This document shows, piece after piece, positions 7,313 through 50,684 of a DNA stretch of 64,000 nucleotides. Position numbers and translations under genes: made by a program. Under the pieces are notes generated by a model. That model was given only the letters and a program-made list of their open reading frames with translations, was not told where the DNA came from and searched no databases. The number at the start of each line of letters is the position of its first letter. Positions within the stretch are counted from its first letter, which is position 1. This DNA comes from Polytrichum commune (lineage: Eukaryota > Streptophyta > Polytrichopsida > Polytrichales > Polytrichaceae): NCBI GenBank assembly GCA_950295325.1, contig OX485804.1:37188429-37252428 (forward strand), in the 5' to 3' direction.

Positions 7313-7369
7313 TAAAGGCTTCCCAACAAAACCTTCAGTGCTGCCACAGCAGTGGAACTGGATCCCATT

Positions 7370-21390: not shown

Positions 21391-22407
21391 AAACTCCGGA
21401 ATATCACCCATCCCTAATGTCACTCCTTCTCTTATATCCCCAAACCCTAGGGAACAAACACATGTTCTCAGCTGTCACATTTCCCTCCCGTACATCACGG
21501 GTGTTGACATAAAAGTAATCCATCAAAGAATTCAAACCACATACTCACACACGTCACGTTGTATGCATTGTAATCATTGTCATTACTATATTGTTGACTT
21601 TGTGTTATTCCATCACAACACCACATACTATCATCACGTGCACTGTGGTGGCCGGAGGCGTGATATTAGGGAGGCTAGAGTGCACATGGTCATGGCCCTA
21701 GAGTAAAAACCATAAACCTGAGTAGCTCGGATTTGAAAAGAGCTGGCCTATCCAGCTCAGCGCACACAGACACAGACACAGACACACACACCCACGCTCA
21801 CACTCACAGGGCAGCTAAGCTAAGCTAAGCTGGGAGAGTTCCCAACGGTGCTCTCGACACAACACACAGACGAGCTTCACTTTGCAAAGTGACTCCCCCT
21901 TGCGTCTGCCGTCCCCTCCCTGCTCCCTGTTTCTCTTAGGTTAGGTCGCCCAGCCCTACTCCACTGCCGTGCCTCACCTCACCTCCCCTCCGCAGGCCGG
22001 GAGGCAGACGGGGAGAGATAGGGACACCATCGCAGCAAATTGGTAAGTGTGCTTTTTAAGTTATTCATCACGCTTCCCGAGTTCTCCAATCTTGTTGTCA
22101 CAGTGTTTTTATTTTTACGAAGGTTCCGCGTAGGAGGGGTTTCGTGTTATATGGTCTCGGGATCGGCGTCGAGAGAGAGAGAGAGAGAGATATTTAGGTT
22201 CTCGTGAGAGCCATTGGTGTTTATCGAGGTTAGAGAGAGAGAGAGTAGAGAGAGAAGGGGGGGGGGGAGTGAGGCTTGGGGAGCAAGTTTTGAGAAGGGG
22301 AGGGTATAAGAGGAGGAGTTGGTCTCTCCTGAAGAGTTGGATCTGAATTTATTGCAGATTGAAAAGGGAAGGAGAGATTTGGATTAGGTGTGCGGAGGTT
22401 GTCCACA
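21391..22407 (+). promoter_or_regulatory. Promoter and 5' leader of the CAS gene, with a leader intron
   Basis: The stretch turns GC-richer towards the gene. It carries a CA-rich tract at about 21760-21806, a short AGCTA tandem at about 21815-21833, and GA runs at about 22170-22190 and 22230-22260. A good splice donor (TTG followed by GTAAGT at 22043) and an acceptor (TTATTGCAG ending at 22357) define a probable intron in the 5' untranslated region. GA-rich leaders with an intron are common in plant housekeeping genes. No TATA box was evident. Confidence 0.55.
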
Positions 22408-25400
22408 ATGCAGAACTCGGAGGAGACATTGAAGACACTGTCGCAGTGTTTCTTGCAAACCCTAGCTCCCAATCCGGAGCCACGGAAGCAAGCAGAGAAT
22501 TTCTTGAAGCAAGCGGCGGATCAGCCCGGGTACGGGATCATAATCCTGCAAATTCTGAGCTCGCCAACAGTGGATGAGCAAGTGCGGCAGGCGGCAGCTG
22601 TGAATTTCAAGAACCACATCAAGTTCCGATGGGCAACTCCGGACCCGGAAGCTCTAGCTTCCACGGTTCCCATCCAAGATCCGGAGAAGGAGCAGATTAA
22701 GGGGTTGATTGTAAATTTGATGGTCACCAGCCCTCCCAAGATCCAATCGCAGCTCAGTGAAGCCCTAGCTATCATGAGTCAGCACGATTTTCCCAGTAAG
22801 TGGCAGAGTTTGTTACCGGAGCTTGTTGCGAATCTTCAGTCTGCCACTGACTATTCCATCATCAATGGCATTTTACAGACTGCGAATTCGATCTTCAAGC
22901 GCTTTAGGTACCAGTTTAAGAGCAATGAGCTTTTCATTGACCTAAAATACTGCCTTGATGGGTTTCAAGCGCCTCTTCTTGAGCTGTTTCAGAAGACTGG
23001 ATTAGTTGTTGCGGCCCATACTGAAGCTCCGGCCGTCTTGAAACCTGCTCTAGAATGTCAGCGGTTATGTTGTCGCATATTCTACTCTTTGAATTTCCAG
23101 GAGTTGCCTGAGTTTTTTGAGAATCACATGCCTGAGTGGATGGGTGAGTTCCACAAGTACCTTGTGTACTCGAATCCTTTGCTGGTGGAAAAGAATGCGG
23201 AGAATGTGAGCGTGGTGGATGAACTCAAGGCGGCTATTTGTGAGAATATCAATCTGTATATGGAGAAGAATGAAGAGGAATTCCAGGCGTACTTGAGCCA
23301 GTTTGCTACGGATGTGTGGAGCCTGCTCATGACCGTCTCTCTGGCTCCCAGCCAAGATAAGCTGGCCACTACTGCCATCAAGTTCATTACCACAGTAAGC
23401 AAGAGTGTGCACCACAACCTTTTTAGCGATGCTGCAACCCTAAAGCAGATTTGTGAGAGCATTGTCATACCTAACGTGAGGATACGGGATGAGGATGAGG
23501 AGCTTTTCGAGATGAATCATGTCGAATACATCAGAAGGGATGTGGAGGGAAGCGATCTTGACACCAGGTAAAGTGTCTTACATCTTGATTCTTGACCAAG
23601 GGTAAGGGGTGTTGTGTTCTGTTTGATCCCAGTTTCTCGGAGTAGTACCTGCACTTGTATGTTAGGGTGTAGGACTAACGATCTTCCGTCAACTCTACAG
23701 CACTGTATGTGGAACTAGAGACTGGGTTTTGTCATCTGAAGATTTCAGATTATTTACTTCCGTTTTTTTGCATATTTGCAGGAGAAGAATGGCTTGTGAG
23801 TTAGTGAAAGGGCTATCCTCTCACTATCGAGAACAAGTGACCGGAATGTTTACTGGTTACATTCAAACAATGATTCAGGAATATGCTGCAAATCCAGTGC
23901 AGAACTGGAAAGCAAAGGACTGTGCAATCTATTTGGTTGTCTCTCTCGCCCAAAGGCAAGCATCAGTAGGGGCCGTTGCAAGCGATCTCGTGAATTTCGA
24001 GCAATTTTTTAGCTCTCAGATTGTGCCTGAGTTGCGAGCTCAGGATGTGAACTCGAACGCCCTTCTGAAGGCTGATGCTCTAAAGTTTGTCACCACATTT
24101 CGCACTCAGATTCCCAAGCATCTGACATTGGAGTTGATGCCCCAGCTGATTGGGTTTCTTGTGGCAGAATCAAATGTTGTGCACTCATATGCAGCCTTAG
24201 CAATTGAGAAACTGTTGGCTATCAAGGATGGGAAGCAACCACGCTATACTGGATCAGATCTTACGCCCTTCTTACAACCACTCTTCATAAACTTGTTTGG
24301 TGCCCTAAAGCTACCCGAGTCTCAGGAGAACGCATATGTCATGCGCTGTATCATGAGGGTATTATCCATAGCAGACATTGGGCCATTTGCACCTCAATGT
24401 TTAGGTGAGTTGGCTAATATTCTTATGGTTGTCTGCAAGAATCCATCGAACCCTAGCTTCAATCACTATCTTTTTGAGGCAGTAGCAGCTTTGCTGAGGA
24501 ATGCATGCGAGAAGGACCCTGGACAAGTAGCCACTTTTGAGAACCAGCTGTTCCCTGTGTTCCAAGCAGTTCTGGAGCAAGACGTCACCGAGTTTGCTCC
24601 TTATGTCTTTCAAATCATGGCACAGCTGATTGAGAGTCGAAGACCACCTCTTCCTCAGATATATATTGCATTCTTCCCTCCGTTGCTGACTCCCCTACTT
24701 TGGCAAAGGCAGGCGAATGTCCCAGGTTTGGTAAGGCTTCTGCAGGCCTATCTACAGAAAGCTCCGCAAGAAATCAATAAAGAGAACCAATTAATGCAGG
24801 TTCTTGGAGTGTTTGAGAAGCTAGTTGCCTCGAAGAACACAGACCATCAGGGTTTTTTCATCCTGAACACCGTTGTGGAGAATCTGAGCTATGAAGCTCT
24901 GTCGCCATTCATGGCACAAATTTGGAACATTCTGTTTTCTCGACTGCAGTACCGGAGCACAGGGAAGTTCATCAAGTCGCTCATAATATTTGCTTCTCTT
25001 TTTAGTGTGAAGCATGGTTCAGGACGAGTTATAGAAACAATCAATGCAGTGCAACCTAATTTATTTGCCAGCATCTTGGATAAGATCTGGATTCCAAATC
25101 TGACCACCATCAGTGGGGACATTGAGACCAAACTGTGTGCAGTGGCTGCTACAATGCTTGTTGCTCCACTGTTTCAAAGCTCCCAGGAAATCTATGTGGG
25201 GAAGTTGGTGAATAGTGTGATGACACTTCTTGTAAAGCCAGAAGAAGACAGAGTTGAGGAAGATAAAGATGTGCCGGACATGGACGAAGTGGCAGGCTAT
25301 GTGGCCGTGTATGCCCAACTCCACAATGCAGCTAAGAGGGAAGATGATCCTCTCAAGGATATCAAAGACCCAAAAGAGTTTGTGGCGAAGACCCTGGCAG

Positions 25401-25513
25401 GAGTGTCTCAGCAGTATCCAAAGTTGTCTTCTATTATCCAGCAAGGGTTGGAAGCAGGAAACATGACAGCTTTGGCACAGTTTTGTAGTGCTTACGGAGT
25501 TAGTATAGTTTAA
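22408..25513 (+). CDS. CAS: Exportin-2 (CAS/CSE1, importin-alpha re-exporter), two exons
   Basis: Exportin-2 is an importin-beta family HEAT-repeat protein that, with Ran-GTP, returns importin-alpha from nucleus to cytoplasm. The coding exons are 22408-23567 and 23782-25513, joined GT-AG in frame (DTR followed by [11 protein letters not shown]), giving 963 residues, close to the usual 970 or so. The start [19 protein letters not shown] matches the family N-terminus; the frame is open upstream but the first ATG is at 22408. The importin-beta N-terminal domain lies at about residues 25-105 ([13 protein letters not shown]), the Cse1 domain covers the middle, and the CAS/CSE1 C-terminal domain ends at the stop. 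No frameshift or missing segment was seen. Expression is expected to be constitutive from the GA-rich leader; this is inference. Confidence 0.96.
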
Positions 25514-26650
25514 GGCTAGTTTATGTGAGTTCCACTTTCAAGTGGAAACAGAAAGAAAAAACACTCTGGTTCCAGGTTATTCATCCAAACGTCTTATTAT
25601 GATCCAAAGCATGGATGTTTCTAGGCAGGAGAGTCTAGAAGAGAAAAAGCTGTGTAAACCGTATCTGTTTCTTCATGTCTCTCCTGTTGGTATTTTCTCA
25701 TGTCTCACCAGTTTGGAGTTGTTGACATACAACAGTGACGACGTTAGCAGCTTTGTTGTGGAGTTACTAATTAGGGCATTATTCTCTGTTCTGGTTGTAT
25801 TTTGTTGCCCTTTGGCTTGCAGTATGTGCATGCTGGCATATCTCCTCAGCTTTGTGTGGTCAATTCCAAAGCAGCTCCCCTCCATTGACAAGGAGAACAA
25901 AGTGATGCCTCGTCGAGTAAGTCTGCCAGGTCTGTGACTAACTGTCCAATTTCCTGTTTGCACAGACGTATAGAAATTGCAGATATCCTGTGTATGTTGG
26001 CACATTTGTTATCACGGGTGTCATTTTCTAGTACAGTAGTGATCAGACCATTTAACAAAATTTCTGTGTGGTGTCTCTTGTTTTGCAGGTCTGGAACTTG
26101 CAGTACAGGGTAGAAACAGAGACGGACAGGCAGAAATTTAATAGGGTTCACCAATCATCGTTTGTGACAAGAATTACCAGTATTGAGACTTGTGTTATGG
26201 GGGATGAGGCTTTGCGCTTGCCATGCAAATGAGACAACCCTGTATGAAGTTTATTGCTTAGCGTCCTTTGGAGTGGGCTATTTTGGTGTGCCTTGTTTGT
26301 CGATGACTTATGGTTGGCCTGGATAATTTCACTTGGTCTAAGTGTCCAGTTTCCAGTTGTTGATAGTGCCAGTGTAGAAAGTAATTACTGGCGACATATA
26401 TCAAGTGATTTTTGGGATGTAGTAAGATTGTATACTTGTAATGAATGACGCCTGTTTTGCTGATAACTGATGCTGAGAGTATTGCTAGATCTGTGACTTT
26501 GGGGAACAGATGGTATAAGTCATAATAGTTGGGTCCTCCAAGGAATCTTCTGTGCTAACTTTCAAGAACTCAGGGTTTGTAAGTTTTTGTAAATATTGCA
26601 CTACATGCAGTGAATGCGATCTATAAGTGGAGTAATTTCATGTTGAGAAT
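25514..26650 (+). other. Probable 3' untranslated region of CAS, possibly with an intron
   Basis: The sequence after the CAS stop is unique and has no convincing coding frame. A possible GT-AG intron (donor GAGTAAGT at 25917, acceptor TTTTGCAG near 26089) lies within it. The frame at 25542-25937 is probably untranslated. Confidence 0.4.
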
Positions 26651-28844
26651 CTCTTACAAGTGTTCTTAGAATTGGGATGAAGAACATGCACCTTTTCTGG
26701 TAGTATGCACAATGATGTACCCCTTGTTTAGCATTCTTAGAATTACACTTTTTGCCATGCACGGAGTCCCTGTATCGTACAAGAAAAGAAAACGACGTTT
26801 CTGTAACACATACACCAAGCAGCCACTCGAGTCTTCAGTGCAATGCATTGATTTGAATTGAATTTTACTTGATTCGAAATCTATTTATAGTGCATTAATT
26901 TTATGGTGTATGTAAATGATGGTTTGACATCAGATGGTTGCTGGAAAGTTGGGCGTGAAACTTGTGGTATGAGATCTTCAGATCAAACAGCTCTTTGATG
27001 GTATTTTGACATCTTTTACAAGAAGTCGATTGGTTCTTTGAGCTGCTCTTGCAAGTCCGGCTAGGGGTCAATGAGTAGCCTTGTGAGGTGTATTCATCCT
27101 TTGGCGGTGGTAAAAACCATTTGATTCATAAATTAAATTACAAAATTTGCCTTTCCTCCCCTATCAAGGTTCATTCAACCCGTGTATCAACCAAGGTATC
27201 AGACGATTGGGCCGATGTTGCAACTATAATAACAATAGTCACAAAACTTTCATTTTTCTCATGATGCTTAAATTAACAACTGAGTACACTAAACATACGT
27301 GTTGATTTAAAATTAATTAAATACATTGGTCATGTAGCATCAAGTGTCATGCCATGCCCTATCTAGTTGTCACCCAATGAGTGCAAGACAATCACTGTGG
27401 ATCAATGATGAATATTGTGAACTACACTAAAATAGATGTTCAATGCAATATCATGGCATTTTGTTGGTGTTATGAGTACATGCAGTGCTTGCTACACAAT
27501 GCACAATAAAGACTACCAGTTGGCAATATTTTCCATGAAATTGGGGTTAGGTCACAAGGGAGGAGCTATCATGGTTCACTATTGGCAACCACGTAGGTTG
27601 TTTGCAGGACACTTGATGTGGAGTTGGCACTGACCTACCAAACCATGTTGATTTGTTGCTTTAGTTTTGTTTTTTTTTAATAAAAAAACCATTTTTCAAG
27701 ATTTTGTTCTAAAGTGAAAATATCAACACACTACTTTTAGGGCAATTCTAGCATCATGAACCCATACAAATCGTCATTGTGCAATAAGGATCAATTAAAC
27801 CCATGGCCTTAACCAAAATCCCTATGGACGACTTATAGGAAGTCATTCTCACAAGCCTCCATCAACTGATTGACATGTGTAATAATTTGTAAATGCTTGA
27901 TTTTAAATTGACATAATAACACTAGACTTGAACCATTACTTGCCCCCCCCCCCAATTCTTCTCTTAATATAATTTTTTCACCCTTAAATGAATAGTACAT
28001 CTAAGGTCTCACTAGATATACATCATTTTGTATAAGTTTATATGGCTAAAGTTTGCCTTCTATGTATGCACGTCCAATTCATATAACTTGAAAAACAACC
28101 CAGTCGTGAAAACTTCTTGCCTATCCATACTCATAATCCCATAACATATAATTTGGTTTGATAATTTCATGTAAAATGTTGAATGAAAATACTTCCTACG
28201 TTCTCCGCCAACTATTGGAGCTAAAATAAGAAGTATGATGTAAAGTATACCATGCAACTGCTCAAATATCGAAGCTAAAACCTTAAACTATAATTCACTT
28301 GGAGTTTGTACAAAAAATGGTTGAAGATGCTTCCTAACATCTCTACAAAATTCCCTTATGATTTTGATAATACAATCTTGTGGACTTTATACAAGTAACC
28401 TATGCTATGCAAGCCATCACCACTACCTAACTTGTGACATTGCTACCCTCTCTTGCACTGGCACAATAACCCTATAACGAATATCTTATTTCTTAAAATA
28501 GGGGCCCAACCTCTCACACAAAAAATTGAATGTAATGTATTTTACTCGAGTTTGCTTCCTATATTTTTTTCCATTCATGAACATAACAACAAATGGTCTA
28601 CAAATCCGCACATCCATAATGGACTTCATATGTTTATCTCTCTATGCCCCGTACTCTCATAAACCAAGCTTAAAATTACAAACTTCTCCCTTTCTCCTTG
28701 CAATAACAATACCTAAATGTCCACAACATGCTTCACAAGCATGTACGAAAACATGTATAATCCTAAGAGTAAAATAAGTCTCCTCCTCCTCTCCTTCATT
28801 GTAACCATGCTTTTCTGAAATTCAAGGTGAAAACAAGCAAAAAT
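26651..28844. other. Intergenic DNA, no gene seen
   Basis: AT-rich DNA with homopolymer tracts (a poly-C run near 27945 and a T run near 27670). Only short frames occur and none is recognised. Confidence 0.4.
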
Positions 28845-29122
28845 AAGAAATGAAGACAAGTAAAGCCAAGAGAAGACAAGAGAATGGTCAAACTTGATCT
28901 TTGTTTCTTTCAAAACTGCTCTTTTAGTCATATATTATAAAAATCAACACATTCGTTTTTTGGTGCATGGTCATTCCTCATGGTCCACATTCGGTTTACA
29001 CCTAATGAGGGGCCCAAAGGCTTTGTAGATTGATTTTCTAAGAAATCGGACCATGCAAGTTGGACCATGCAAGAAGGCCATCTTCCATGGTCCGAATTCA
29101 TGATCATGGTGTAAACCGGCCC
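28845..29122. mobile_element. Truncated MITE of family B, inverted relative to the 9.5 kb copy
   Basis: The right end TGGTGTAAACCGGCCC is the reverse complement of the family B left end, and inward blocks (CATGGTCCACATTCGGTTTA and AAAATCAACACATTCG) match 9600-9690 in reverse. The other end is missing or too diverged to place. The right end lies about 950 bp upstream of the phytocyanin-kinase start codon. Confidence 0.65.
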
Positions 29123-30070
29123 TGAGCCCAAAATAATGGCCATGGCCGAAATTAGGCAGAGCATTCAGAAAGCCTGTGACCGGACGCGCAGCTAGATCAG
29201 AATCCCTGCATTTGTGTCGCATCAATCTTTCCCGCCTCCACAATTCTAATTTGGTGCGCGCATATAAGGATCGAACTGAAGCATCCCTCGGTAATGGTCT
29301 AAATAAAGGCGAGCTTTTCTGTTTCTTCGAAGTTCGGCGATGTAATTACCGTGGCAGTACTCGTGAGCCGGTGAGACTGCTCACGTGCGTCTCATTATTC
29401 CGTCACCACGCTCCGATCTAGTTGTGTTGAGTTAAGTTCATTGCACAATGATGGCCGATCTGATGAATCCGGTGAACATGTTGATGAAGATGACTATCGG
29501 AGAAGCGGAGGGAGCGCGTGAGTCATCGAGATGATCGCCTTACTGAGATCACAATCGGCATAGGGTGAATGTGGCTCCCCGACGCCGTACTCCTCAAATT
29601 TCGGCGCAGAGGTCATCACCCGCCTTAACCACTTTGAGAATGGGCAAAGCTTCTGATTCGGATATAATATGGAGAGGCATTTATGCAAGGGCGAGCGTCT
29701 CTTCAGTCGAATAGCTAGTGAAGATGCAGGAACCTCATACGGGAGCGATCATGGCAATGTTGTCGAAATGAATGCAATGCTGCTAGTACATTGACATGCA
29801 TGATCGACCTACACGTGTTCTTGTATCATGTTTGTCATTCCCTAATCGACGCCTTACATAATGTGCTCCCGACGTAACTTCCAGCAGGAGCTCTCAGGCC
29901 AAGGAGAGTGCCGGAACAACGCACCGCATTAGCACATGTAGTACAATGTTTGCGAGGAATACGATAGTCTGGAGGATTCACTTGAGCAACTACTACTTCT
30001 AGTTGCGGTTCACGGGTGCTGCAAGTGCTGCTTGTAGCGTGTGGTAATAATATAGGATAGTCACGGCGCT
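29123..30070 (+). other. Upstream region of the phytocyanin-kinase gene
   Basis: GC is higher here than in the repeat-rich flanks. Short frames on both strands (such as 29176-29421) show no recognisable domain. The promoter and leader of the downstream gene should lie here. A TATA-like or other core element could not be assigned. Confidence 0.35.
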
Positions 30071-32576
30071 ATGGCTGATTTTGGAAGACACAGGTGCATC
30101 ACACGAGTTCTTCTATACCATTTATCCACCATATTCGGATTGTTGATAGCAACCCAAGGAGATGCTAAAACTGTTCTCGTAGGTGGTGACGCGGGCTGGA
30201 CCAACGTCGATCCGGTTACTGCGAGAGCTCCAGATTATACTGTGTGGGCGGCTAGTCAAACTTTATACGTAAACGACGTGCTTGGTAAGAAATGTGAAGT
30301 GGACAGGAACGTCTTGCTCCTGACATGTGCTTGATCTGCGTCGAAGGTCTTGTGGATGAATTTGAAATTTGGAAGATTGATGATGTTGCGTTGTTAAGAT
30401 AATTCGCGTGCACCTGTGGAGTTGTCTTAAATCACATGGCCCTTGTACTTTCAGATGTGTAGTTTCACCAGTACGAGAACTTTTTAAGAAATAAAGATAC
30501 AATACACATTTTCGTGAATATAACAAGTCTTTGAAGAATGTTTGTACACGAATCGAAGATGTAGCTTTCGTTGAAAGATTAGTACGGTGAAAATATCCGA
30601 CGTGTCATAATATTTGGAACGACGGATATGGCGATGATCACATTTTGATTTCCTTGCAGAATTTGTGTTCGTCGCGGGGTCACATGACTTGTACCAACTC
30701 ACATCAGAAGCAGCCCTAGCCGCTTGCAATTTCACTGGTGCAACGGTCATCTTCGACAAGTCTGCTTCTAGTCCTTTCAATGTGCGTGGGCTTGAAGCTA
30801 ATCAACCCGCTCAATTTCCTGCATAAGTTCTTTACAAATTTCTTCACATGCTTCACGTGATATTCTTTACCTTAGGATTTCTTAGTATAACAATCTTGTA
30901 TGTATGTATGTATTATAGGATGATCTGCTTCCTTTTTGAAGTGGCTGCTCTTGAACACTGAATGCTTCACTTTTCTCCAGGTTACGCTAAATGCTGGAGG
31001 TGTGAGCTACTTAGCGTGTTCATCTGGCGGGTCTTCACATTGTCTACAAGGACAAAAATTTGCAGTAAACGTCACTGGCCCGACTATCAGCCCTATCAAT
31101 CCTCCTTCGTCTTCATCAAATAGCAGCAATTCCTCAGTGATTACAGGTGCTCGATTACAAAATCCTGCTCTCTTCACAATAGGTGTAGAATGAGTTTTGT
31201 AACTGGAAATAAGGACTGCATCCTAATTGCCTTGTTGTAGGATCTCGGTACAAGGGACAACCAACTGCTATGACTACGAAAGATAGACATGGCTACCTAC
31301 TCTTCAAAGTAACAGGCCGCCACGCCTCCTTCTCACATCGTCAGACCATAAATTAGTTTTCAGATAATTCATCTCCACGACGACTGAAAACCACTTTTGA
31401 TAGTTCTTGCTATTATCTGTGAGAAGGATAAGGCACAGGATGACTCTTGGAGCTATGCTAAATTGAGCTTCCAGTGCACTGTTTTTCTCAGGAGTTGTGA
31501 TTACGTTGCTGGTAGTGATTGGAGGGGCCCTCGCTGGATACATCTGCTATCAAAGAAAGCGGAGAAATGACTTCAAATCCTTAGTGCGCAAGCGCACATC
31601 GAACAGCAACTTGCAGGAGATGATGTCCTCAATTACCCAGGGGAAGGGTTCGGTGCTTGCCTTCACGTTGAAGGAGCTGGAAAAAGGGACCGAGAATTTT
31701 GGTGAGCACCTCATCCTTGGGATTGGTGGCTTCGGAACAGTGTATAGAGGCACCTTGAGAAATGGAATGGTACAAGTTGCTATCAAGATCTCAAACCATA
31801 GTAGTACCAGTGGGAAGAAACAGCTTCTAAACGAAGTTTCAATTCTGTCGAAAACCAGTCATCCCAATCTGGTGCGACTGTACGGGTGTTGCCTCGAGAC
31901 GGAGGTTCCAATCCTCGTCTACGAATATATACCGAACGGAAATCTGTACGAGCACTTGCACAGGCTCCGCTTTGGAGTGAATTTGAACTGGACAAAACGC
32001 TTACAGATTGCAACAGAGACTGCTGAAGCGCTTGCTTACCTCCATTTCTCCGCGCATCCTCCCATTTATCACCGCGATGTGAAGTCAGCAAACATTCTGT
32101 TGGACAACACCTTCACGGTTAAGGTTGCTGATTTCGGTTTATCTCGCTTGACCAATCCCGAAAAGACGCATGTCTCCACAGCCGTGCAAGGCACGCCTGG
32201 GTATGTGGACCCCGAGTACTTCGCTAGCTACCATCTCACCGACAAAAGTGATGTGTACAGCTTCGGTGTGGTCTTGCTGGAGCTCATCACTTCCAAAAGG
32301 CCATTGGATCTGAGGAGGGAAGATGATCACCACTTGTCTGCTTACGCCAAGCCATTCATCAAGGAAGGGAAGCTGGATATGATCATGGATCCTCAGCTGA
32401 AGGAACCAGCAGAGCAATATGAACAGACACTCCCAATCATCCAGTGCGTTGCAGAATTAGCACTCGACTGTCTGGCAGATAAGAGAAAGGATCGTCCGAC
32501 GATGAAGGATGTGGTCGAGGATCTTCACCACATCAAGGGCTTCAACCGGCGTATTGATCGGAGTATGATCACTTAG
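30071..32576 (+). CDS. Receptor-like kinase with a phytocyanin (copper-protein) ectodomain
   Basis: The coding exons are 30071-30284, 30660-30781, 30981-31146 and 31492-32576. All introns are GT-AG and all joins keep frame, giving 528 residues. A signal peptide (about 1-32) precedes a phytocyanin domain (about 33-143) that starts KTVLVGGDAGW. The type-1 copper ligands appear present: His80 (GSHDLYQL), Cys125 (YLAC), His132 (SSHC) and Gln137 (GQK, stellacyanin-like). The disulfide pair would be Cys94 and Cys133. A Ser/Asn-rich stalk follows, then one membrane span (about 169-187), basic KRKRRND-type residues, and a WAK/LRK10L-like kinase from about residue 225: glycine loop GIGGFG (244-249), Lys266, HRD Asp363, DFG Asp381, and an activation segment GTPGYVDPEY. 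All kinase catalytic residues are kept. Two extra residues lie between Cys125 and His132 compared with common phytocyanins. It probably sits in the plasma membrane with the copper domain outside; the ligand is unknown. The splice joins are inferred from sequence, not from transcripts. Confidence 0.88.
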
Positions 32577-34345
32577 CAGGCAAATAAATTGCGGTTTAAT
32601 CTTACATTCCTCGTCATTTAAACCCTTTCTCCGAGTTCGTCAAAGACATAGGTCAAAAATTTATAGATGCTTCAGTACCGATGCTGCGTGCATCATTCCA
32701 TCTTTCACCAAACTTAGCGCTCCTAGAACTGGCTCCCGAATTTTGCATTATTGTCACGGGGCATTACACATGAAGAGTATTCTCAACAGTTTCTCTTTGC
32801 TTACGTTTGATCCCCAACATTAGCTTCCCTATGTCTTCCCCCCCTCCTTTCCCATGTACAATGATCAGGTTGTCAAAATTAGAGGTTAAGGTTTCCACAT
32901 AGGAGGTTTAAACAAATGTAGTGAATCAGGAAGGCAATCAGGTAAGAATGTGCGTAGTTCTCTAACAATGCATTAAGTTCAGAGGCTGTCCTTGCTGAAT
33001 TTGTGCTCACTCTAATTGTCTGACTTTCCTGTACAAAGAAATCTCCTATGACATGTATCTGGGGCAGAGAGACCATGAGCAGGCAGACACTATTTCACTT
33101 AGCAGACATTGTCCCTGCACGGGCCATTGCATTATGATGGTTACTTCATCGCAGAGAACTTTATAAGTAGCTGCAATGTCTCCTGTGTTGTTTGGATTGT
33201 ATTATGAGAGATTCTCGAAACACTTGTAATAGGCTACATGTAAATAAAAAACTACCACAGCGTGCTGACATGTTAAAACAGGTTGATCTTATCATCTTAA
33301 TTCCGACCCCGCCACTCAGGGGGAGTAACTTAGTCGATCACTTATTCAATATTCAGGAACTTCAATCATCGAATTGCAATAACTTAGGTATCACTGTGTC
33401 CAACGATACCTAGCAGTTCACTCATTGGCGATTGTCAGGGTAATAGGAGCTTGTAACGAGAGGAGTACTAAGTAATGATACAGTTCAAAAACGTGAGGGC
33501 TAGCTGCTGCCAGGATGTACGGAAGACCACCCTTACTTTAAGCGCGCGATGATTGGAAAAGCCTCCGATATAAGAAATCTTTTCACATATATTCACTCAC
33601 CCTCGAAATTGTTCCGAACTTCCGATGCAGGATTTTAGTGAGCGTTACCGAGACGGCTTTTGTTTCTATAAGATGGCCCATGCAATGATTAAGAGACTTT
33701 TCAAAGCAGTCGAGGCCGGGAGCCGCTTACTAACTTAGACTGGAAGCGAGTATCATATGGAAGGGATGAGTCACGTGTGACCTTGTGTCAGTACCTTGCG
33801 CAAAGTGTACTACCGATTGCCTTCCAGTACTTGACTCGCATCGTGGCACTTGAGGAAGCTTTCCGAAAATCTCGCGGCGAGTTTCGCTTGCGGTGACTTC
33901 CTTACACACTGTTTGCAAAGTATCGGTCCTCGCCAACACAACAATCTGGCAAATGCTCTGTTCTAGAATCGGGTGATGAGAGAACTTTGTGACACTCCAC
34001 TTAGAGATTTGTCCATGAATGCGACGCTTTTTCAAGGTTTCGTGCATCAGGTGAAAGAGTCCCACATTGCCGTGGCATTTGATTAAGTAGTAGGTGTCTT
34101 CAGAGGGTGCGTAATGTTGTTCTATGTCTTTCGTGTACTAGGCTCTGCGAGTCACGGTATTCGCCTTTGAAGAACTCCCGAATTCGGTCTTCTAGAAGGC
34201 GACTAGCACAGCGATCTCACCGGCTTGAAGGTCTCAAACCCTAAATCCGGAGATGAAATTTGAAACCACAAGTATTTCCAGAAACCGGACTCGCCACGGC
34301 GAATAATGCACTACGGAGCCATCGCTCCTCAAAGTGTAACTCAAG
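32577..34345. other. Intergenic DNA between the kinase and transporter genes
   Basis: This should contain the 3' untranslated region of the kinase gene and the promoter of the transporter. A minus-strand frame at 33730-34065 (111 codons, including FSHHPILEQSICQIVVLART) has protein-like composition but no recognised domain and no supporting exon. I leave it unassigned. Confidence 0.3.
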
Positions 34346-37300
34346 ATGAAAGTGCGCTCCCCGAAGCTGAATTATGATGCTTTGAACGAGGTTCGTATGT
34401 CGCCAACTTCCCTGGACAGAAGTAGTAATCACCTGGCTGAAAATGACGCGAGCCATTTTTTACCAAAGAATGTGGAACTGTCGCATCTCGGAGACCCGAG
34501 TGAAGGCCCCCTGTATTTGGAGACAAATGGCAAAGCGGATGTGGACCCGGTCGACATCGGGATTGCACAGAGGACATGGCGGTATTTCATGCAGCCCTTC
34601 TCGTGGACAGCTATGTTGTCCCGGTAAGCTCTAGCTATACAACTGAGATCTTCTCTTTCAGTGCTTGAGTTTGTCTGTTACGAATCCAACCTTATGGATC
34701 TTGTCTATAGACTGAATTAGACAATTCGAGACAAATTTTTGTAACCCACCTGCCTAGATTACGAAGAGGCTTTTGAGCGGCATAAATTGCTTCCGTATTT
34801 TGTGTCTCAGGGTCTTCTAAGTTTTGAATTCGAGTTTACATCCCTCGTAGAAGGACTGAACCTCAGCAGTTAGACTTGAACGCAATCTCTCAGCCTATTG
34901 TCTCATCTACTCGAAAGCTCTGCAACTCATGAAACCTGTGCTGTAATGGTAGCTTTGCCCTTACCCTCGCCATCGACGTGAAACGAATTCAGTTACTGTT
35001 TAATTTACAATTTGAAGCTCACGACAGATCTAGTACTTCCTGTTGTCCACTAGGCTGAAACTACATACAGGGTCACAGAAAGTGTTGATCAGGGTTTTGT
35101 GTCTCAGGGTTTTCTAAGTTTTAGATTTCGAGATTACAACTATGAATAAATGGTTGGTCACAGCAATGAATGTAACTATTGTTCAACCTAGAAACAAGTG
35201 ATTCGAAATGGAGAGATCAGCTAATATTGTACATTACGTTATGATGGTATACCGGAGCTTGAAATCTTGTCTTTCCTGCATCTATCAAGGTATTTGTCAT
35301 CAGTAAATAATCATAGAGCTCGTACTTGGTACCTCTCAATCTGACTCCATATACACTACTAAATTACTCTTGGTTTTTGTTGGTTTTTGACAGTCCTAAG
35401 TCCTTGTAGTTTCTTTCTGCAATTGCCTCTCCCGTAAGCAATGAGAGAATACGGACATTTGCCAACCGTTCTGCGTTAACAACGGACATCCGAAAGGATT
35501 TTTCTAATCCTTTTCTCTCGTTCCTTGTGCTGATTCTCTGACAGGGAATTCGATGTCACATTTGTTGTTGGAGTTATAGTGGTGTATGGCATAAGCCAGG
35601 GGTTAGGGTTTGCCCTAAACCGTGTTGTTGTGGATTACTATTGGAAAGATGTGCAAGGGGCTCAGCCTTCAACTGTGCAGTTCTACCGCTCAATTATGTG
35701 GTCCCCCTGGGATGTTAAACCCATCTATGGCCTCCTCACTGATCTCCTCCCATTTTTCGGATACCATCGCCGGCCCTACTTCGTCCTTTCAGGTCTATAT
35801 ACAGAACCTTAAGCATTCATGGTAATTCTGTCCTGTGCTGTGTGGAAGTTAGCATCTGAGTCCAAAACAAGGGTGGTTTACTCCAATGCACAACAACATG
35901 GAATCTAGACCTAACATCTCTGACCCATACTATGTTAGAGTTAAGTATAGTATTGAAAATGCATTGCACTAGTTTCCACCAGATTCAGGATTTATTCTTA
36001 AGTTGTCCTCTTCTCCAAGATAAACAGAAGGACTATAGGAGATCTGATATGCTTGAGGGAGGAAGTGGACAACTCATAGGCGAACATTATTACAATAGAC
36101 ACATCATAATAACTTTAAAAGTCGATAAATAGCTATGACTGATAAAGCTCATACTCTGAACAGGCCACAGAAAATTCAGTTATGTAAATTGCAGTATATT
36201 AATAGTGGCGTATTATTCAGCTTCGCTACATGATGACTGCAGGCCTCTTCAAGTTCATAACATAAATTCAAGAGCCTTGTTTGTGGTAAGATAGGTCTTG
36301 TGACAGTGTCAACATACCTGGTACTCGTACTTGGTGGAAAATTACATGCGGCGACGGCGCTCATGATGTTTGTCGGTGCCTCAACGGCCACGGCTATGGC
36401 TGATGTGACAATTGATGCTATGGTGGCCATGAAGAGTCGAGAAAGACCAGAGCTTGCTACACACTTACAGAGCTTCTGCGGCTCCTGCTTATCTATTGGA
36501 GGCTTATTGGGATTCTTGATAAGTGGGCTTGCTGTGCATGCCTTTGGGCCCCAGGTCTGAATACTTCTTTGGAGTCTCTTCAAGATTTTTGTCCAGCTCC
36601 AATCTAATCATCAATAACATCAGAATGTGCTTCTAAAGAACAGAGGAAGGTCACAAATTATCTCAGTCAACCCAGCTATTATACTTAGCACCGCCCTAAC
36701 TGCGCAAGGGGTTTCAAAGGAGGTTTGAGTATGTTTGTGTTCTATATGATTTTCACCTGTGATTTGAAGTCAGTAGGCAATTTTAATCTCAATGTATAAG
36801 TAAGGACTGTTCAGTCATAATCTGACGAGTTTGTGAGGGAAGAAAGGCTATCACTGCATTGTGATGGTGTGGTTCTTTTTGGAGCAACATTCACAACCTT
36901 ATCATCTAGTCTTGTTCCGCCATGTTTTATGTATCCTAGACCTTTACAGCATGTTCTTGTAGGATTTCTTTCAATACCCTCCCCCCCCCGGAGTTTGAGG
37001 TAACTGTCAAGAATTCATCCATACAATGATATTCCAGATTTCAGTGTCACCTTGATAAGAAGCACGTTGGAGACTGGTTGTGGGATGTGACTGAGCTTGG
37101 CAGCTTTCCTTCTTGCAAGTGTTAGGCAGAAGATTGAGAAGGTAAATTTACCAGAGAGTTTCTGCAGATTGCGTTGGGTATCATGATCGGTCCTGGAGTT
37201 CTTCTGCTCATTCTCGGTTTTACCATATTTGAGCACCGGCTACCTCGCCACCTTTGGCATTCTGGCCAGGTAACCTCTACTACTAACTTTGCATGGTGGG

Positions 37301-40177
37301 AAGTAATTCAGTTTCTGAAAGAGGAAGACATACAGGTTCAAATTTGTAGAAGATATGGCGAGTCATAAGTCACAATTTTCTGGTGTTTTGATCATAGGTG
37401 AAGCAGCAGATGAAACAAGCCTGTTCCAGTATGTGGGCCACACTGAGGAATTCTGAGGTCTGGCAACCAACTCTCTATATGTACCTGTCATGGGCATTAG
37501 CACCTGACATCTCAGAAGGCAAGTTCTATTGGTACAATGATGCCAACACCGGTCCTGGCTTCTCGGAGGTATAACCTCATGCCTTACCTCTAATATTTAT
37601 TGCTGTATTTATAGTATTCTGTTTGAGGTTCAGTGTCCTTCCATTTCACTAAATGAATCAAGAGCACAGTGCAATAGATCATACTGCTTACAATTACATG
37701 TTGGCTCATTTTTTGTCTAGTTGAGTATCACGAGTGAGATTCAGATGGTGTGAATGTGTAGTATCGAAGTCAAAACATTTTATTTCTTCCAATTCTTGAT
37801 ACATTCTCGACATATGGCACATGACAGTTGTACAAAATTAGTCCGATATACTTTGTGTTGTTGATCACCTCTCAGGAAGTGCACATGCAGTTCTAGGAGC
37901 CATTGTCACTTAAAGATATTGTTTTACTCCATCGAACACCCCCAATGCGTTTCCTGAAATTAGTGAACTCTGTAATTTGCCCAGCCGGTATCCTTGGCAC
38001 TGCTGATGCGCTGGTTCCTATGGATGGTGCAGGAATTTGTGGGGGTGATTTATGCAATGGGGCAAGTAGGGACCTTAATAGGTGTGGCCTTCTACCATAG
38101 ATATCTACGGCACTGGACATTTCGGAGCCTTTTGTTCTGGGTACAACTCCTGCTAGCTTTGAGTGGAATGTTGGACTTGGTGCTTGTGACTGGACTCAAC
38201 AGGAAGCTGCTCATTCCTGATTACATTTTTGCCATAACTGATGAAGGAGTTTCACAAGTAAGTAGCTCTGCTTCATCTCATGTTCAAGTCATCGATTCTT
38301 GATTGTAAGTTTGTTGCTGATCAAGTTGTATTTTCAAACAACATCCTCACAAAATTGGGTTGGGAGTAAGTGTTTGGACTTTTCCTAATTAGCTTTCTAG
38401 GAATTAGAAAGCTAGCAATAACAGTCATCAAATGCCTTTCTAAAGGTACCTGTCCAATCTCTATCTGGATATAATCACAGCTTCAAGATAGGGTTCTAGA
38501 AAAGATCTGGAAAGCACATTTAGGACTTTTTAGCGTCACAGATCACTTTTGGAGGAAAAACATCTCGTAAACACGTGGGACCTATTTGTGTTGGCAGTTA
38601 TTCTATATGATTTTGGCTAATTCATAACCACTTGGCTGAAGTGCTATTGATCTGTTTGTTATCTTATGTGGAGTGTGTGGATGTCGTAGTTTTGTCTGTT
38701 GTGGAGCATTCTATATTTGTTGCAAGTCTGCATATGAAACTTCCATTTCACCTGTCTTTTGATCACTATATACATCTAAATAATCTTAAATCAACTATAA
38801 GATTGGAGTATAGTGATTGAAAAGTGACCTCTTTGATTTCAAAGAACTCACCAGTGAGTTTATGAGGCACTCTGTTTCAGACTCCTGGCAAGCTTGTCAT
38901 CCTCATTGTTACATGAATCATTCAATTCTAGGGGGCACATCCTTCAAATATGTCAAGAATATATTACAGACAGGGTATAGTAGCCCCATAGCAAAGTTAC
39001 AACCATAACAACTCTAAGCACAAGTGTTCCCATTTGGGGTCATTGATGTGGCATATATAGAAATTACATAGCAACAATCGATAAGAGCAAGGGGCAATGA
39101 ATGAAATGGAAGCTAGGTATAAGGCTAGGAGAACTGGTGTAGGAGATTTATTAGGTCATTGCACATTAGCTCGTGACCATTGATTCTAAATTGAAGGATG
39201 CATTGAACAACCAAGACTTTCAATGTAACTGTTGTTGTGTTAACTGGTATTTGCATGTCTTTTAATTTCTTTGATTAATCAATCGCTTCATCCGTGCCTT
39301 TGCTTTTTCCTTAGAACACGTAGTAATAATCTTGGGTTTCATAGAACTTACTTGAGCAATGTACCTGAGGGCAAGGGAAGACTCAAGGAATGCATAAGGT
39401 AGGAAGGAAGGGAGAGAGAGAAGGGATAAGAGGGAGGAAGGGAGGGTGGTAAGGTAGATTTCACTTGCTTTTGTTAGACAAGGTATATGTAGTCACTTCC
39501 CAATGGCGTGAGCACCTCTGGAAATTTCTCTTTAAATTTAAACATGGGATATTGTCAAGGGGGTCCACAATTGGAAGCAAAGGTGAAAATAAAGATAGAA
39601 CTAAACCATGTCTGCATTCAAAAACGTTGCTGAAGATGAAAGATTCACACATCCTCATTTGAATTCATTTGTAATCCCGCGATCAAAAAAGTCTGAACAT
39701 TTTCACACCAAACCTTCTGTTTTCGAATTAATTGTGCTTTTTCTTGTTATATGTATCTTGCAGGCAATTAAACGGATCAAATGGATGCCTCTTCTAGTCT
39801 TGGCTGCCAGATTATGCCCGGCAGGCATTGAGGGAACATTCTTTGCGTTGCTTATGTCGGTGGACAATGTAGGCATGTTGTCGGCTTCATGGGCAGGTGG
39901 ATTGTTGCTCCAGGCGACAGGCATCCGACGCAAAAACTTCAAATATTTATGGCTCGCAGTTCTTATTCGAAATATTATGATGCTGTTTCCTCTTCCGTTC
40001 CTGGGTCTAATTCCTAACACTGATCCTGACCTACCGATTCTGCCTCCCGAGCTGTTGAGTGGATCCATTGAGCCAACACCAGTCCCTGGGAGCGAGCATG
40101 CTATTATTGACGAAGAGAAAGATGAGGAGGACGTCCAACTCCCCATGTTTGCCTCCGACAGAGGGCACCAGAGTTAA
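34346..40177 (+). CDS. Folate-biopterin transporter (BT1 family), seven exons
   Basis: This family moves folates and pteridines across membranes by a major-facilitator-type fold; plant members are plastidial or at other membranes. The exons are 34346-34623, 35545-35792, 36295-36554, 37168-37269, 37398-37568, 38033-38257 and 39764-40177. The introns are GT-AG and all frames join, giving 565 residues. The first exon encodes a polar N-terminal extension of about 90 residues. Family-typical blocks follow: VVDYYWKDVQGAQPSTVQFY, WDVKPIYGLLTDLLPFFGYH, RRPYFVLSG, MADVTIDAMVA, and CPAGIEGTFFALLMSVDNVG. The membrane spans are spread over exons 2-7, and the tail is acidic (DEEKDEEDV). Intron 6 holds a repeat copy (about 39050-39480). 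A piece resembling the start of exon 7 sits just before exon 6. Subcellular site and exact substrate are not shown by the sequence. Confidence 0.92.
37915..38032 (+). pseudogene. Fragment resembling the start of the transporter's last exon, in intron 5
   Basis: Directly upstream of exon 6 the plus strand reads through PPMRFLKLVNSVICPAGILG followed by TADALVPMDG. Exon 7 reads WMPLLVLAARLCPAGIEG followed by TFFALLMSVDN. The shared CPAGI-GT--AL pattern, and matching nucleotides around TGCCC-GC-GG-AT, suggest a decayed duplicate of part of exon 7. The match is short and could be chance. Confidence 0.35.
39050..39480. repeat. Repeat copy in transporter intron 6
   Basis: It shares collinear blocks with 14840-15260 (for example GGATGCATTG and the purine-rich GGAAGGGAGAGAGAGAAGGG next to the region ending in AGGTATATGTA versus TTGGTATATT). 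It is probably an internal piece of the long-arm element at 14520-16307. Confidence 0.45.
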
Positions 40178-41254: not shown

Positions 41255-42468
<1,214 letters not shown>

Positions 42469-45692: not shown

Positions 45693-47754
45693 AGGCACTA
45701 CAACAGAACACGTCTTTTACAACTGGGTTTTTCAACTTCTACAAGTGAAAAAACCCAGACTTTACTGACGTGGAAAACGACCAGTCACTTCAGACAAGAA
45801 GTAAAGTGTGGTCATAGTCATGTCGGACAGGACGTTTCCAATGGACATGTTCCCAATGACAGTGAAGTTTGGGGTGCTCCAGTGCTTTACTTCTTAAAGT
45901 CGTGTCCTACTTCACTACACCTCGTCAATATAAGTAAGATAAGACACACGTTCATATAACTAGGCCTAGTGGACTCATGGCACTGGCACCAGTTATGTAT
46001 GGTGTTTGCACTTCACTACACAGAGTCATAACATGTAAAATGCATATATATACATTCCAAATTACTAGTCAATGTTAACAACGTGATTGAAACAAATAAG
46101 TTTCATCGTGACGATGATTAGTTGAATTAATTTTTACACATTACTGTTTCCCGTAATCGCGGACAACAAAGCGAGAAGTCAATAACGTTGCGTAGTAAGC
46201 ATCTCTGACTGCTAATAGTAAATAAATACAACAAATGCATTTTGTTTTTACTACATGTCGTGATATCTACTTCACTGAGTGGAGTAATGTTTACATCAAC
46301 CAGTAATTTCTGGCCTACGTTGTGAGGTCATGTGGTTGTCGTATGTCTTTGTTATGTATTACTAGTAGTGAAGTGTATATGACTTTGCCAAGTCATATGT
46401 TTTTAATGCAAATGATTGCGTTTACTGTATCGAATAACATGGGGTTTACTTGACATAGTGATATGTCCTGGCATACACATTATATTGCCACTGGTCATAC
46501 TAGACAATAACTTTGCGTAGTAAGCGTCTGTGACTGGTAGGAGTGAATAAATATGGAAATGACATATATTTTTTACTTGACAAAGTGATATCTACTTTAC
46601 TATATAAAGTAATGTTGACAACAAACGTTGTAAGGTCATATGGTCTTCATATATCTTTAGGGTTTATTATTAGTAGTTAACTTCATGTTCACTTTGCTAA
46701 GTGCCATGTTTATGATGCAAATGATTGTGTTTACTGCAACTAGTAACATGAGGATGACTCAATAAGGTCATATACTTGTGGTATGCACCATATATTTCCA
46801 CTTATCATACAAAATACAGTCACCTATAAAATGCAGTCACACAAACATGGTAATGATGTTAAAAAACCAAATCATATTTATACAATAGTATGTCATGAAT
46901 GTTTCACAAATCGCTACTAACAATGGTAAGCCCTAAACTCCAAAGGGGTCTATATCTAAAAATCAACATAGGTCTACAAATTCACTCCACACTCACGTAT
47001 TTGCACACAACCTTACCCAGTCACCTGCCAAAAGAATGAAATGGCCCTTTGCTTGGCCAATTGTAACCTCCCCTTCGTGGCAAGGGGAGGTTTATCATCC
47101 CGACGCTTATCCATCAATTTTTTGTCTCATTCTTTCTCCATTTTCTTCGAGCCATTTTTTGATGGGCTAGACCTCAATTTCTCTGCAATGTTTATTCAAC
47201 CATTTTAGCCTTACATTGATTAATGCATTGTAAACTAATGTAGAGAAGGACATTAATGTTAGTTCTACCGAACATGGCCGAAAGTTTTAGAATTTCCTAG
47301 TTTTAGAATTTCCTACAGCTAGTTCTTAGTATGTACCACTTCTTATATAAATGTATATCTCTTGAAATCCATCTCTAATGTCTAAACACTCCACGGCTTT
47401 ATGACTATCACATTACTGCTTCTAGTAATATAGGACAACTATGTTGCAGGCCAATAACTATACGTAGTAAACGTCAGTGACTACGGGTAGTAAAAAAATA
47501 CGACAATGGCCATTATTGCATACTGGCTACAGTGATACTTCACCATGTGGAGTTATGTTTACATAAAAATATAACTTAGCATAAACACTCAGAATAATGC
47601 AACCCCCCTTCGTGAGAACGTAACCTTTCTGCAGCATTGCACCGGCCTCCAAAGTTAATTTCTCGTTTTCACTCAGACGTATACGCTTTGGTTTAGGTCC
47701 CCTCTTTCATACACACACACACACATACACACATATTTTCATTCATACAAATAT

Positions 47755-48420
47755 ACACATACCTTTGTCAATGCATTTGGTGAAGACATTAGGTTATTCA
47801 TTCCAAACCCTAACCTTTGGATTATTTCTCATATCTACACTAACAATCTTATCATTACACTCATATATATATTCACACACACACATACATTTTCATTCGT
47901 ACAAATATATACATACCTTTGTCAATGCATTTGATGAAGACATTAGGTTACACATTCCAAACCCTAACCTTTGGATTATTTCTCATATCTACACTAACAA
48001 TCTTATCATTACATTCATATATATATTCACACACACACACACAAACATTTTCATTCATACAAATATACACATACCTTTGTCAATGCAATTGGTGAAGACA
48101 TTAGGTTACACATTCCAAACCCTAACCATTGGATTATTTCTCATATCTACACTAACAATCTTATCATTACACTCACATATATATTCACACACATACACAC
48201 ACACATTTTCATTCATACAAATATACACATACCTTTGTCAATACATTTGGTGAAGGCATTAGGATACACATTCCAAACCCTAACCTTTGGATTATTTCTC
48301 ATATCCACACTAACATTCTTATATTCCACTCACACATATATTCACACACACACATACACATTTCCATTCACACAAATATATAAACATACCTTTGTCATTG
48401 GATTTGGTGAAGACATGGGG
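47755..48420. repeat. Tandem array, about five units of 154-158 bp
   Basis: The phrase ACCTTTGTCAATGCATTTGG recurs at 47761, 47915, 48073, 48231 and 48388, with the rest of each unit also conserved. Each unit holds one AACCCTAACC (telomere-like) motif and a CACACA-rich spacer that varies in length. The 162-codon frame at 47765-48253 is only this repeat being read through and is not a gene. Confidence 0.85.
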
Positions 48421-48603
48421 TTGCATACTCCAAGTTCCTCGCTTTTGATTTATCTCTTATATCCACACTAGCACTCTCATAGTCATACACATATTCTCAT
48501 GTATTTCCTCACATATTTATGGTAAACCCTAATATTGCAAATATTGGGTTCCGCACTCTAAGTTCCTCACTTTTGGCTTGTCTCTCATATCCACACTTAC
48601 ACT

Positions 48604-50684
48604 TGTTGAGTAACAACATTATAAGAGAGAAAAGATGCACAATGGAAAAGCCAACGACAACATACATCACCAAGAGGAGAAATGAATCACCACCGAAACA
48701 AAGAATGAGCACCGAAGACAAGAGGAACTCGGAGAGCCTCGGCCATGATTTTAGGCCCCCTTTCAACGGATATACAAGGAAGTCGCGCGGTTATAGGGCC
48801 CCTTACCCACGGCAATGGGTCCCCAGCGGCCTAATGAAGAAAACTTAGAACTTAGAGATAGAAGATCACTATATAAGTATGAAAGGTCTTATATGAGGAA
48901 TATATAGGAGTATATAGGGGTATTAGAAAGTATATAGGACTAGGATTACATTCCATTAGTATGAGTATACGAGATTTTGTTCAAGGACAATTATGAAAGA
49001 AGAATATTTAAGCAATTACGAGGAGTATATAAGTATTAAGGAGTATATAGGAATATGGTACATTCTACTAGTATGATCATTGGAATTTAAATCAACCAAT
49101 ATGAAGATTTGATGGATTCTAAAAAATGATTTGAAATGTAGCCACGACAAAGATATAGTGGAATCTTAGAAAGACGAACATTAGAGTGGTAAAACGGTTA
49201 TAACCGTTTATAATAGATATCATCTACCTATGTCAGAGATAGGTAGTTATCTAGGAAAGTGGAGTTAACAACCATTTTAAATATAGATTTTAGGTTAGGA
49301 AGAAAAGACTATATAAAGGGAACACTTTTAGGAGACTACACCTCATTTTTAATACGACGAAACTATCTTAAATTTGAGTGTCAAAAACATTTGAGTTCTT
49401 TTTGTATCTCTTCTCTCGGAGTACTTTTGTAATATACTATCTTTTCCACAAATATGTGTGATCTATCTCTCTCTCTCAATTGGACTTACAAGTTGTTAAG
49501 CGGTATTTGGAACTTAAGTGATTAAGCAACCGAGAGAAGAGTAGATTCTTTTGAACAAGAACTCAAAAGATTAGTGTGTGAGGGTGAGAACAAAGCGCTC
49601 AAGGATATTCGGAGAATCAATGGAATTTTGAGAAATGTTGTTATGATGAAGCAAACGTCAATTCATACAACGTGAATGAAGGAAACAAGATTGTCTCTTG
49701 AAAGTGAAAGTTATCATTGAACTCCTCAAAAGGGAATTATCCAAATATAAAGTGATAGAGTGATTAAGATTGAGTTGATAAGACTTGCATGCATATTTCA
49801 ATTAAATTGAGAGTAAGACTTCTTAAATATTACTAAGAAAGAGATACAATTAATTGAGAGAAACTTCTCAATATAAACTATCTATATATATTATGTGACT
49901 TATGGATGATAGTTGAACTTACTCATATTCAATTCTTTAAGTAAATTGTAAAGATAGTAACAAAGATTTTATTGATACTAACAAAGATTGATTGATTAAC
50001 TATTCACAACAATTGTTATTGAAACTTCTTACCTTTAAGATTCTTGTGAGTTGTTGGATGTCATTACAAGTGAAAGATTAACTATCAAAGAGAAGAGTTC
50101 TCTCTCTTGAGCAAAACTCAAGAGAGTTATAATTACTCTTGTCATCAAGAAACACTTTGAAGTAAAAACGTGATATTGCAAAATAATCAATGGTGTTTTG
50201 GATATAAGGTTATAACCACTATATGTTACACATATCAAAGTTACAATACTATAAGTAGTAACACTTGAGCTTAAAAAAGAAGATTCAATAACACAATATC
50301 TTTCTTATTATTATAAGTTATGGAGCAATATTATAAAGTATGTGATTGACATTTATGAACTACGAACTTAACTCCTTGAAGACTTATATAACCTATTGAA
50401 AATTATATTGTTATCAACGATATTGTTATACTTCTTGAAACCTTCTCTAATCTAATTGTTCTTATTATCAATGATGCCTTACATTGAGAGTGAGAATATA
50501 TGATAATGAGAATGTGTTCACTACAATAATTATATTCATATTACAAGGAGAAGAGAGAGATTACTAATTCGAGACCGAGCATATTAATGAGACACAGTAG
50601 TTCTCAAGAGAATATAAATTTACATGATGTCTCATCGTAAATCTTCTTAGCTAATTACGAAGGAACGACCCACGGCGTCCATCA
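48604..50684. mobile_element. LTR-type insertion (probably a solo LTR) inside the CACTA element
   Basis: The segment begins TGTTGAGTAACAAC and ends GGCGTCCATCA, that is TG...CA, and is flanked on both sides by ACACT (48599-48603 and 50685-50689). This is the 5-bp duplication usual for LTR retroelements. Removing it would restore a continuous CA/TC-rich tract of the host element. A TATA-like ACTATATAAAGGG lies near 49307, as expected inside an LTR. I see no second LTR and no coding domains, so a solo LTR of about 2.1 kb is the simplest reading. It is younger than the CACTA insertion. The superfamily cannot be told. Confidence 0.65.

Follow-up and report, generated by a model that had tools for sequence, protein, structure and literature searches.

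A phytocyanin domain joined to a receptor kinase in a predicted gene of the moss Polytrichum commune

Does a single gene of Polytrichum commune place a phytocyanin domain at the head of a membrane-spanning kinase, and if so, what could such a receptor do? The question is raised by PCRK1, which lies on the forward strand of a window of 64,000 nucleotides, that is, the whole stretch of DNA that was analysed (C2:37188429-37252428). A preliminary description had read the locus as one four-exon gene whose joins all keep frame and whose product fuses a phytocyanin domain, a stalk, a membrane span, and a complete kinase.

The gene model of PCRK1

The four exons of PCRK1 (Table 1) join into 1587 nt, giving 528 codons and a stop with no internal stop in the joined frame, and all three introns are GT-AG, in phases 1, 0, and 1. 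The product begins with a hydrophobic N-terminus and a stellacyanin-like phytocyanin domain; a Ser/Asn-rich stalk then leads to a single membrane span, and the C-terminal part is a complete RD kinase. Homology extends through every exon, which upholds the reading of the locus as one in-frame gene and rules out chance open frames as the source of its exons.

Table 1. Coordinates of PCRK1, of other features of the window, and of two related loci elsewhere in the genome
Feature	Position	Strand	Content
PCRK1, whole gene	window 30071-32576	+	four exons
PCRK1 exon 1	window 30071-30284	+	start codon; hydrophobic N-terminus, probably a signal peptide; first part of the phytocyanin domain; phase-1 end between VNDVL and E
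PCRK1 exon 2	window 30660-30781	+	middle of the phytocyanin domain, with the first copper ligand His80 and Cys94
PCRK1 exon 3	window 30981-31146	+	remainder of the phytocyanin domain, with Cys125, His132, Cys133, and Gln137, followed by the Ser/Asn-rich stalk; phase-1 end
PCRK1 intron 3	window 31147-31491	+	fusion joint, 345 nt
PCRK1 exon 4	window 31492-32576	+	RD Ser/Thr kinase (about 224-512), preceded by the span (about 165-187) and a juxtamembrane segment; stop codon
Polyadenylation-like signal	window 32583-32588	+	AATAAA just past the PCRK1 stop; pattern match only
Open frame	window 5849-7375	-	509 codons, no Pfam match at E ≤ 0.01
Exportin-2 (CAS/CSE1) gene	window 22363-25510	+	at least two large exons; Cse1, IBN_N, and CAS_CSE1 over cut-off
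Open frame	window 39605-40174	+	part of a BT1-family transporter, 100.7 bits
Polyubiquitin	window 41258-42244	-	four matched ubiquitin stretches
Simple-repeat open frames	window about 47600-51000		His/Thr-rich, likely microsatellite DNA
PCRK2 (L056)	C2:47894214-47896709	-	second open phytocyanin-kinase fusion
L052	C3:52661349-52662588	-	phytocyanin exon followed by span and kinase pieces

In codon usage, every exon scores higher in its annotated frame than in the other two forward frames; the scores of exons 1-3 (0.050, 0.151, and 0.045) lie within the range of nearby chance open frames (95th percentile 0.175-0.180), and in exon 2 a reverse frame outscores the annotated one (0.166 vs 0.151). 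It is homology that argues for the predicted gene model, the codon bias being weak. This weak bias in exons 1-3 would suit a different reading, namely that a phytocyanin gene is closely followed by a receptor-kinase gene and that the two have been joined on paper only. Against it, the joints are in frame and lie at intron places common to relatives. The phase-1 intron that ends exon 1 stands at the same place in PCRK2 and in L054, an unfused phytocyanin, and intron 2, which is in phase 0 before VTL, lies within about 2 residues of an intron of L054, whose edges were placed by eye. At the fusion joint, the phytocyanin exons join exon 4 in phase; retention of intron 3 would bring a stop about 14 residues on, and no long hydrophobic GPI-type tail was seen by eye in any frame of this intron. 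Exon 4 has no in-frame ATG ahead of the membrane span, its first Met being residue 211, so the upstream exons are needed. Furthermore, PCRK2 carries phytocyanin and kinase in one unbroken frame, and this second open fusion strengthens the case against a mis-joined PCRK1 model. With no evident phytocyanin ending in intron 3 and no start for a membrane-spanning kinase in the exon 4 frame, we reject the two-gene reading as highly improbable. No direct or inverted repeats of at least 40 bases were found within positions 24000-40000 of the window.

The phytocyanin domain, its copper ligands, and the kinase

Searched against Pfam, the joined protein matches Cu_bind_like at residues 54-137 (34.2 bits, curated cut-off 20.8) and, at about 242-512, PK_Tyr_Ser-Thr and Pkinase (172 and 171 bits); beyond these, no family is matched at E ≤ 0.001. 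Hydrophobic 19-residue windows above 1.6 occur solely at 9-27, a probable signal peptide, and within 160-188, and hydropathy and motifs together give a single membrane span in a receptor-kinase layout. Pfam, structure matches, and hydropathy thus agree on the fusion of phytocyanin, stalk, span, and kinase that had been put forward.

Compared with solved structures, residues 31-146 match cucumber stellacyanin (1jer, E = 1.5e-13), umecyanin (1x9r, 2.3e-11), and mavicyanin (1ws7, 6.3e-7). These three distinct structure sequences, all of them phytocyanins, make up the matches at E ≤ 0.001, and the alignments are near end-to-end and traverse all three ectodomain exons. The type-1 copper ligands His80, Cys125, His132, and Gln137 align to those of the three structures with normal His-to-Gln spacing, and the residue numbers first given for them prove correct. 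Cys94 and Cys133, at the positions named earlier for the disulfide, fall on conserved cysteines in these structures, and we take the pair to form the phytocyanin disulfide.

PCRK1 differs from these stellacyanin-type proteins in that a span and a kinase stand in place of a secreted or GPI-type end, and in that the ligand loop is C-X6-H rather than C-X4-H, which bears out the initial observation that it is two residues longer than usual. Cys-X4-His spacing is usual in these structures and not defining. The longer loop is not peculiar to the fusion, since L055, an unfused phytocyanin of the same genome, also has C-X6-H. Known type-1 sites have Cys-to-His gaps of 2 to 8 residues, so X6 in PCRK1 should not forbid copper. 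L055 (C4:32.71 Mb) additionally carries an insert ahead of its first His.

In the kinase we find the G-loop GIGGFGTV, Lys266, Glu282, HRD at 361-363, Asn368, DFG at 381-383, and DPE at 407-409, residues that presumably fill their catalytic roles. All catalytic motifs being present, the kinase is complete, as had been supposed. Its top PDB matches are SymRK and FERONIA, with BRI1 and BAK1 also among the best.

A second fusion and the origin of PCRK1

We searched the moss's own genome, a 408-Mb assembly of 64 contigs in which C1 to C7 total 406.1 Mb. (Contig C8 carries psaA- and psaB-type frames, and the frame compared with solved structures matches 7ksq, 6l35, and 8htu best, at 1671.8 bits each vs 1634.3 for the next; these are Physcomitrium entries, in keeping with a moss.) A whole-protein search with PCRK1, which scored the best 82 of 1164 candidates, brought up PCRK2 through its L032 frame, in which 495 uninterrupted codons run from the second half of a phytocyanin domain through a membrane span to a kinase. 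An upstream exon, its edges placed by eye, supplies a hydrophobic N-terminus and the N-terminal part of the phytocyanin, and the phase-1 junction between the two is placed like intron 1 of PCRK1. Pfam scores the 495-codon frame at 40.3 bits for Cu_bind_like and 163.1 bits for Pkinase. In its copper site the His, Cys, and His are kept, and the axial place is occupied by Val with an extra residue, the usual axial ligand being absent. The best PDB match of the PCRK2 kinase is 6cth, a lectin-type receptor kinase, at 312.5 bits vs 222.7 for the next, that is, about 90 bits ahead.

A third locus, L052, has a phytocyanin exon and then a membrane span and pieces of a kinase on the same strand, with the frames broken and Tyr in place of the copper Cys; it has either decayed or never was one gene. 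The best matches of its three kinase pieces fall in the PCRK2 kinase clade, and one of the three matches PCRK2 itself, so L052 and PCRK2 could have a common kinase ancestor. The presence in the same genome of a locus with broken frames and a lost copper Cys lends something to the view that PCRK1 is likewise a recent, non-functional chimera heading to decay. We consider this very unlikely, as the frames of PCRK1 and its catalytic and ligand residues are intact and the closest relative found for its kinase stands at just 64% identity. Such a distance implies that the kinase part has been kept open over a long divergence, a point that concerns the kinase and not the age of the fusion.

How general are such fusions among the phytocyanins of this genome? 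PF02298 detects 15 places at E ≤ 0.001 and 19 at E ≤ 10. A kinase was looked for beside all 15 (L001-L008, L047, L048-L052, and L032), over 1.5 kb or more of downstream flank, and beside L053-L055, intron-split phytocyanins missed by PF02298, in stretches of 7.5-8.0 kb. The census of 19 places, window gene included, yields two open fusions, one decayed juxtaposition, and 16 places where no downstream kinase was found, so that fusion is not general even in this genome; the four weaker PF02298 places seen at E ≤ 10, one of them at the cut-off, stand outside this count, and it covers fusions whose introns fit within the flank and split phytocyanins that the searches brought up. L051 has a kinase fragment nearby, on the opposite strand. 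Among 15 unfused phytocyanins aligned, 12 have His, Cys, His, and Met/Gln, and the other three (L048, L050, and L051) have Ser for Cys; the L050 match contains internal stops. L003 and L055 keep the four ligands with an extra residue before Met. L053, whose middle exon was not found, stands apart from this alignment and has Ser where the copper Cys is expected, provided that its exons 1 and 3 belong to a single gene.

The kinase tree is built from this genome, with no named WAK reference among its 36 rows. The rows were drawn from the loci of two own-genome searches, the best 30 of 86 places in one and the best 12 of 82 in the other, PCRK2 being the first of the 12. Two rows repeating L035 and L037 were dropped, as were L016, L017, and L027, which are fragments of the L029 gene or of a copy close to it. 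PCRK1 is sister to the EGF-type L029 with support 99/96; the two kinases are 64% identical over 290 aa, and the upstream exon of L029 bears EGF domains. PCRK2 falls within a clade of 12 rows (100/99) including L035 and L037, in both of which Pfam finds a legume-lectin domain; of the rows other than PCRK2, the ectodomain check covered these two. At 37.44 and 37.42 Mb of C6 stand two EGF-type receptor-kinase genes, L016/L029 and L017/L027, very similar by eye and about 25 kb apart, which are the nearest kinase relatives of PCRK1.

For the phytocyanin domain the tree (21 rows, 69 columns) is unsettled in bootstrap, with one of 18 branches starred, and the nearest unfused relatives are therefore named from pairwise matches only. 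Outside the window, the best own-genome match of PCRK1 exon 1 is the unfused L042/L053 at 40% (47.5% over 40 aa with L053); L054 reaches 48.6% over 37 aa at an E-value weaker than that of L053. The nearest unfused relative of the PCRK2 ectodomain is L007 (44% over 68 aa), and that of the L052 phytocyanin is L047 (64% over 55 aa). Given their different kinase families and different nearest unfused phytocyanins, PCRK1 and PCRK2 look to have been made independently.

In PCRK1 the exon that encodes the span and the kinase opens at 31492 with a phase-1 acceptor, and L029 has one at the corresponding position. L011 and L012 have a phase-1 AG at the same place before the span, as judged by AG position and phase only, and in L010 the sole AG in the scanned stretch is in phase 1, 14 bases upstream of the anchor residue. 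All six AGs in the scanned stretch of L012 are in phase 1, so part of this agreement could be chance. The phase-1 intron before the span that is common to PCRK1 and its EGF relative suggests exon shuffling, and the closeness, on the phytocyanin side, of intron 2 to an intron of unfused L054 is a trace that such shuffling would be expected to leave. We propose that PCRK1 could have been created at this old intron, when a WAK-like, EGF-bearing receptor kinase would have exchanged its extracellular exons for those of a three-exon phytocyanin gene. PCRK1 resembles the WAK/WAKL group in its kinase and in the place of this intron, and differs from it in having, by Pfam, no EGF or GUB_WAK domain and a phytocyanin domain instead. 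The PCRK2 kinase groups with the L-type lectin receptor kinases by both 6cth and the tree, and it carries a phytocyanin domain where L035 and L037 have a legume-lectin domain.

Possible functions of the phytocyanin head

What the sequence of PCRK1 establishes is its anatomy alone; copper loading, a ligand, and signaling are what we infer from it. On balance, we favor the hypothesis that PCRK1 is a chimeric receptor kinase, derived by exon shuffling between a phytocyanin and a WAK-like gene, in which the state or the contacts of the head switch the kinase on. The phytocyanin head, which probably carries copper, would lie in the wall space. A change of its state there, or contact with the wall or with a partner protein, would alter receptor pairing and thereby turn the kinase on. 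PCRK1 would then be the one-chain form of the two-protein ENODL/receptor-kinase arrangement.

ENODLs, to our knowledge, lack the copper ligands. The closest working parallel to PCRK1 is that of ENODL14/15, which are reported to interact with FERONIA (PMC6726743); there too a phytocyanin-like domain and a receptor kinase come together at the plasma membrane, although as two proteins rather than one chain. The chimeric GPI-anchored phytocyanins (uclacyanin/ENODL) differ in that the stalk of PCRK1 leads to a span and a kinase, with no hydrophobic GPI signal.

The ENODL14/15-FERONIA interaction favors one particular form of head contact, in which the cupredoxin fold is a binding surface only, for a protein or wall ligand, with copper either lacking or purely structural, in the manner of ephrins or ENODLs. 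Ephrins have been proposed to descend from cupredoxins with loss of the copper (PMC6485061). Within this genome, PCRK2 is without the axial ligand, the unfused L048, L050, L051, and L053 are without the Cys, and the kinase relatives of the fusions bear EGF or malectin domains in the case of PCRK1 and legume-lectin domains in that of PCRK2. PCRK1, however, retains all four ligands though its nearest unfused relative, L053, has lost the Cys, and we give the binding-surface reading slightly less than an even chance.

That retention, together with that of both further cysteines, speaks instead for a copper or redox sensor, whose type-1 site would take up copper or shift its oxidation state in response to ascorbate, peroxide, or quinones of the apoplast and so activate the kinase. 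Type-1 copper sites, however, are rigid between oxidation states and suit electron transfer better than switching. Moreover, the usual axial ligand is absent from PCRK2, and the axial Val of PCRK2 together with the unusual C-X6-H loop indicates that the purpose of these fusions need not involve copper. We know of no copper site in HPCA1. HPCA1/CARD1 nonetheless offers a precedent for a receptor-kinase ectodomain that senses an extracellular oxidant, differing from PCRK1 in being an LRR receptor kinase that works through oxidation of ectodomain cysteines (PMC12040379), and the WAK-type OsWAK11 is tied to copper tolerance (PMC10868138). Copper or redox sensing, the distinct sensing system that the preliminary description had envisaged, is in our view plausible but doubtful, and no likelier than a receptor for a wall or protein ligand.

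In the available text of a survey of phytocyanins in ten plants, which counts 28 genes in Physcomitrella, the word kinase occurs 0 times (PMC4499708), and phytocyanin and plastocyanin each occur 0 times in the corresponding parts of two receptor-kinase papers (PMC10868138, PMC10916322). No phytocyanin-kinase fusion appears in the accessible portions of PMC6993872, PMC7733995, and PMC5073881, and none is named in the titles or abstract starts among the literature matches listed, a scope outside which subscription papers mostly fall. Public proteomes may already include proteins of this architecture that have gone unnoticed. We regard the predicted phytocyanin-headed receptor kinase as a real and new receptor-kinase architecture.

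The extracellular role of phytocyanins is largely open. A phytocyanin wired to a kinase in one chain would make that role testable by setting the copper ligands against kinase output. Two open fusions with different kinase families and different phytocyanin relatives suggest, as does the pairing of ENODL14 with FERONIA, that phytocyanins and receptor kinases act in the same signaling process. It is conceivable, if rather unlikely, that the moss lineage repeatedly made phytocyanins into receptor heads, in at least two kinase families, and that the products are cupredoxin receptor kinases, their kinase controlled by a type-1 copper site in the wall space. If true, these would be the plant counterpart of the use of the cupredoxin fold in cell-surface signaling, with the metal kept. 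With a second, apparently independent fusion in this genome, phytocyanin-type domains may have been recruited more than once as plant cell-surface sensors.
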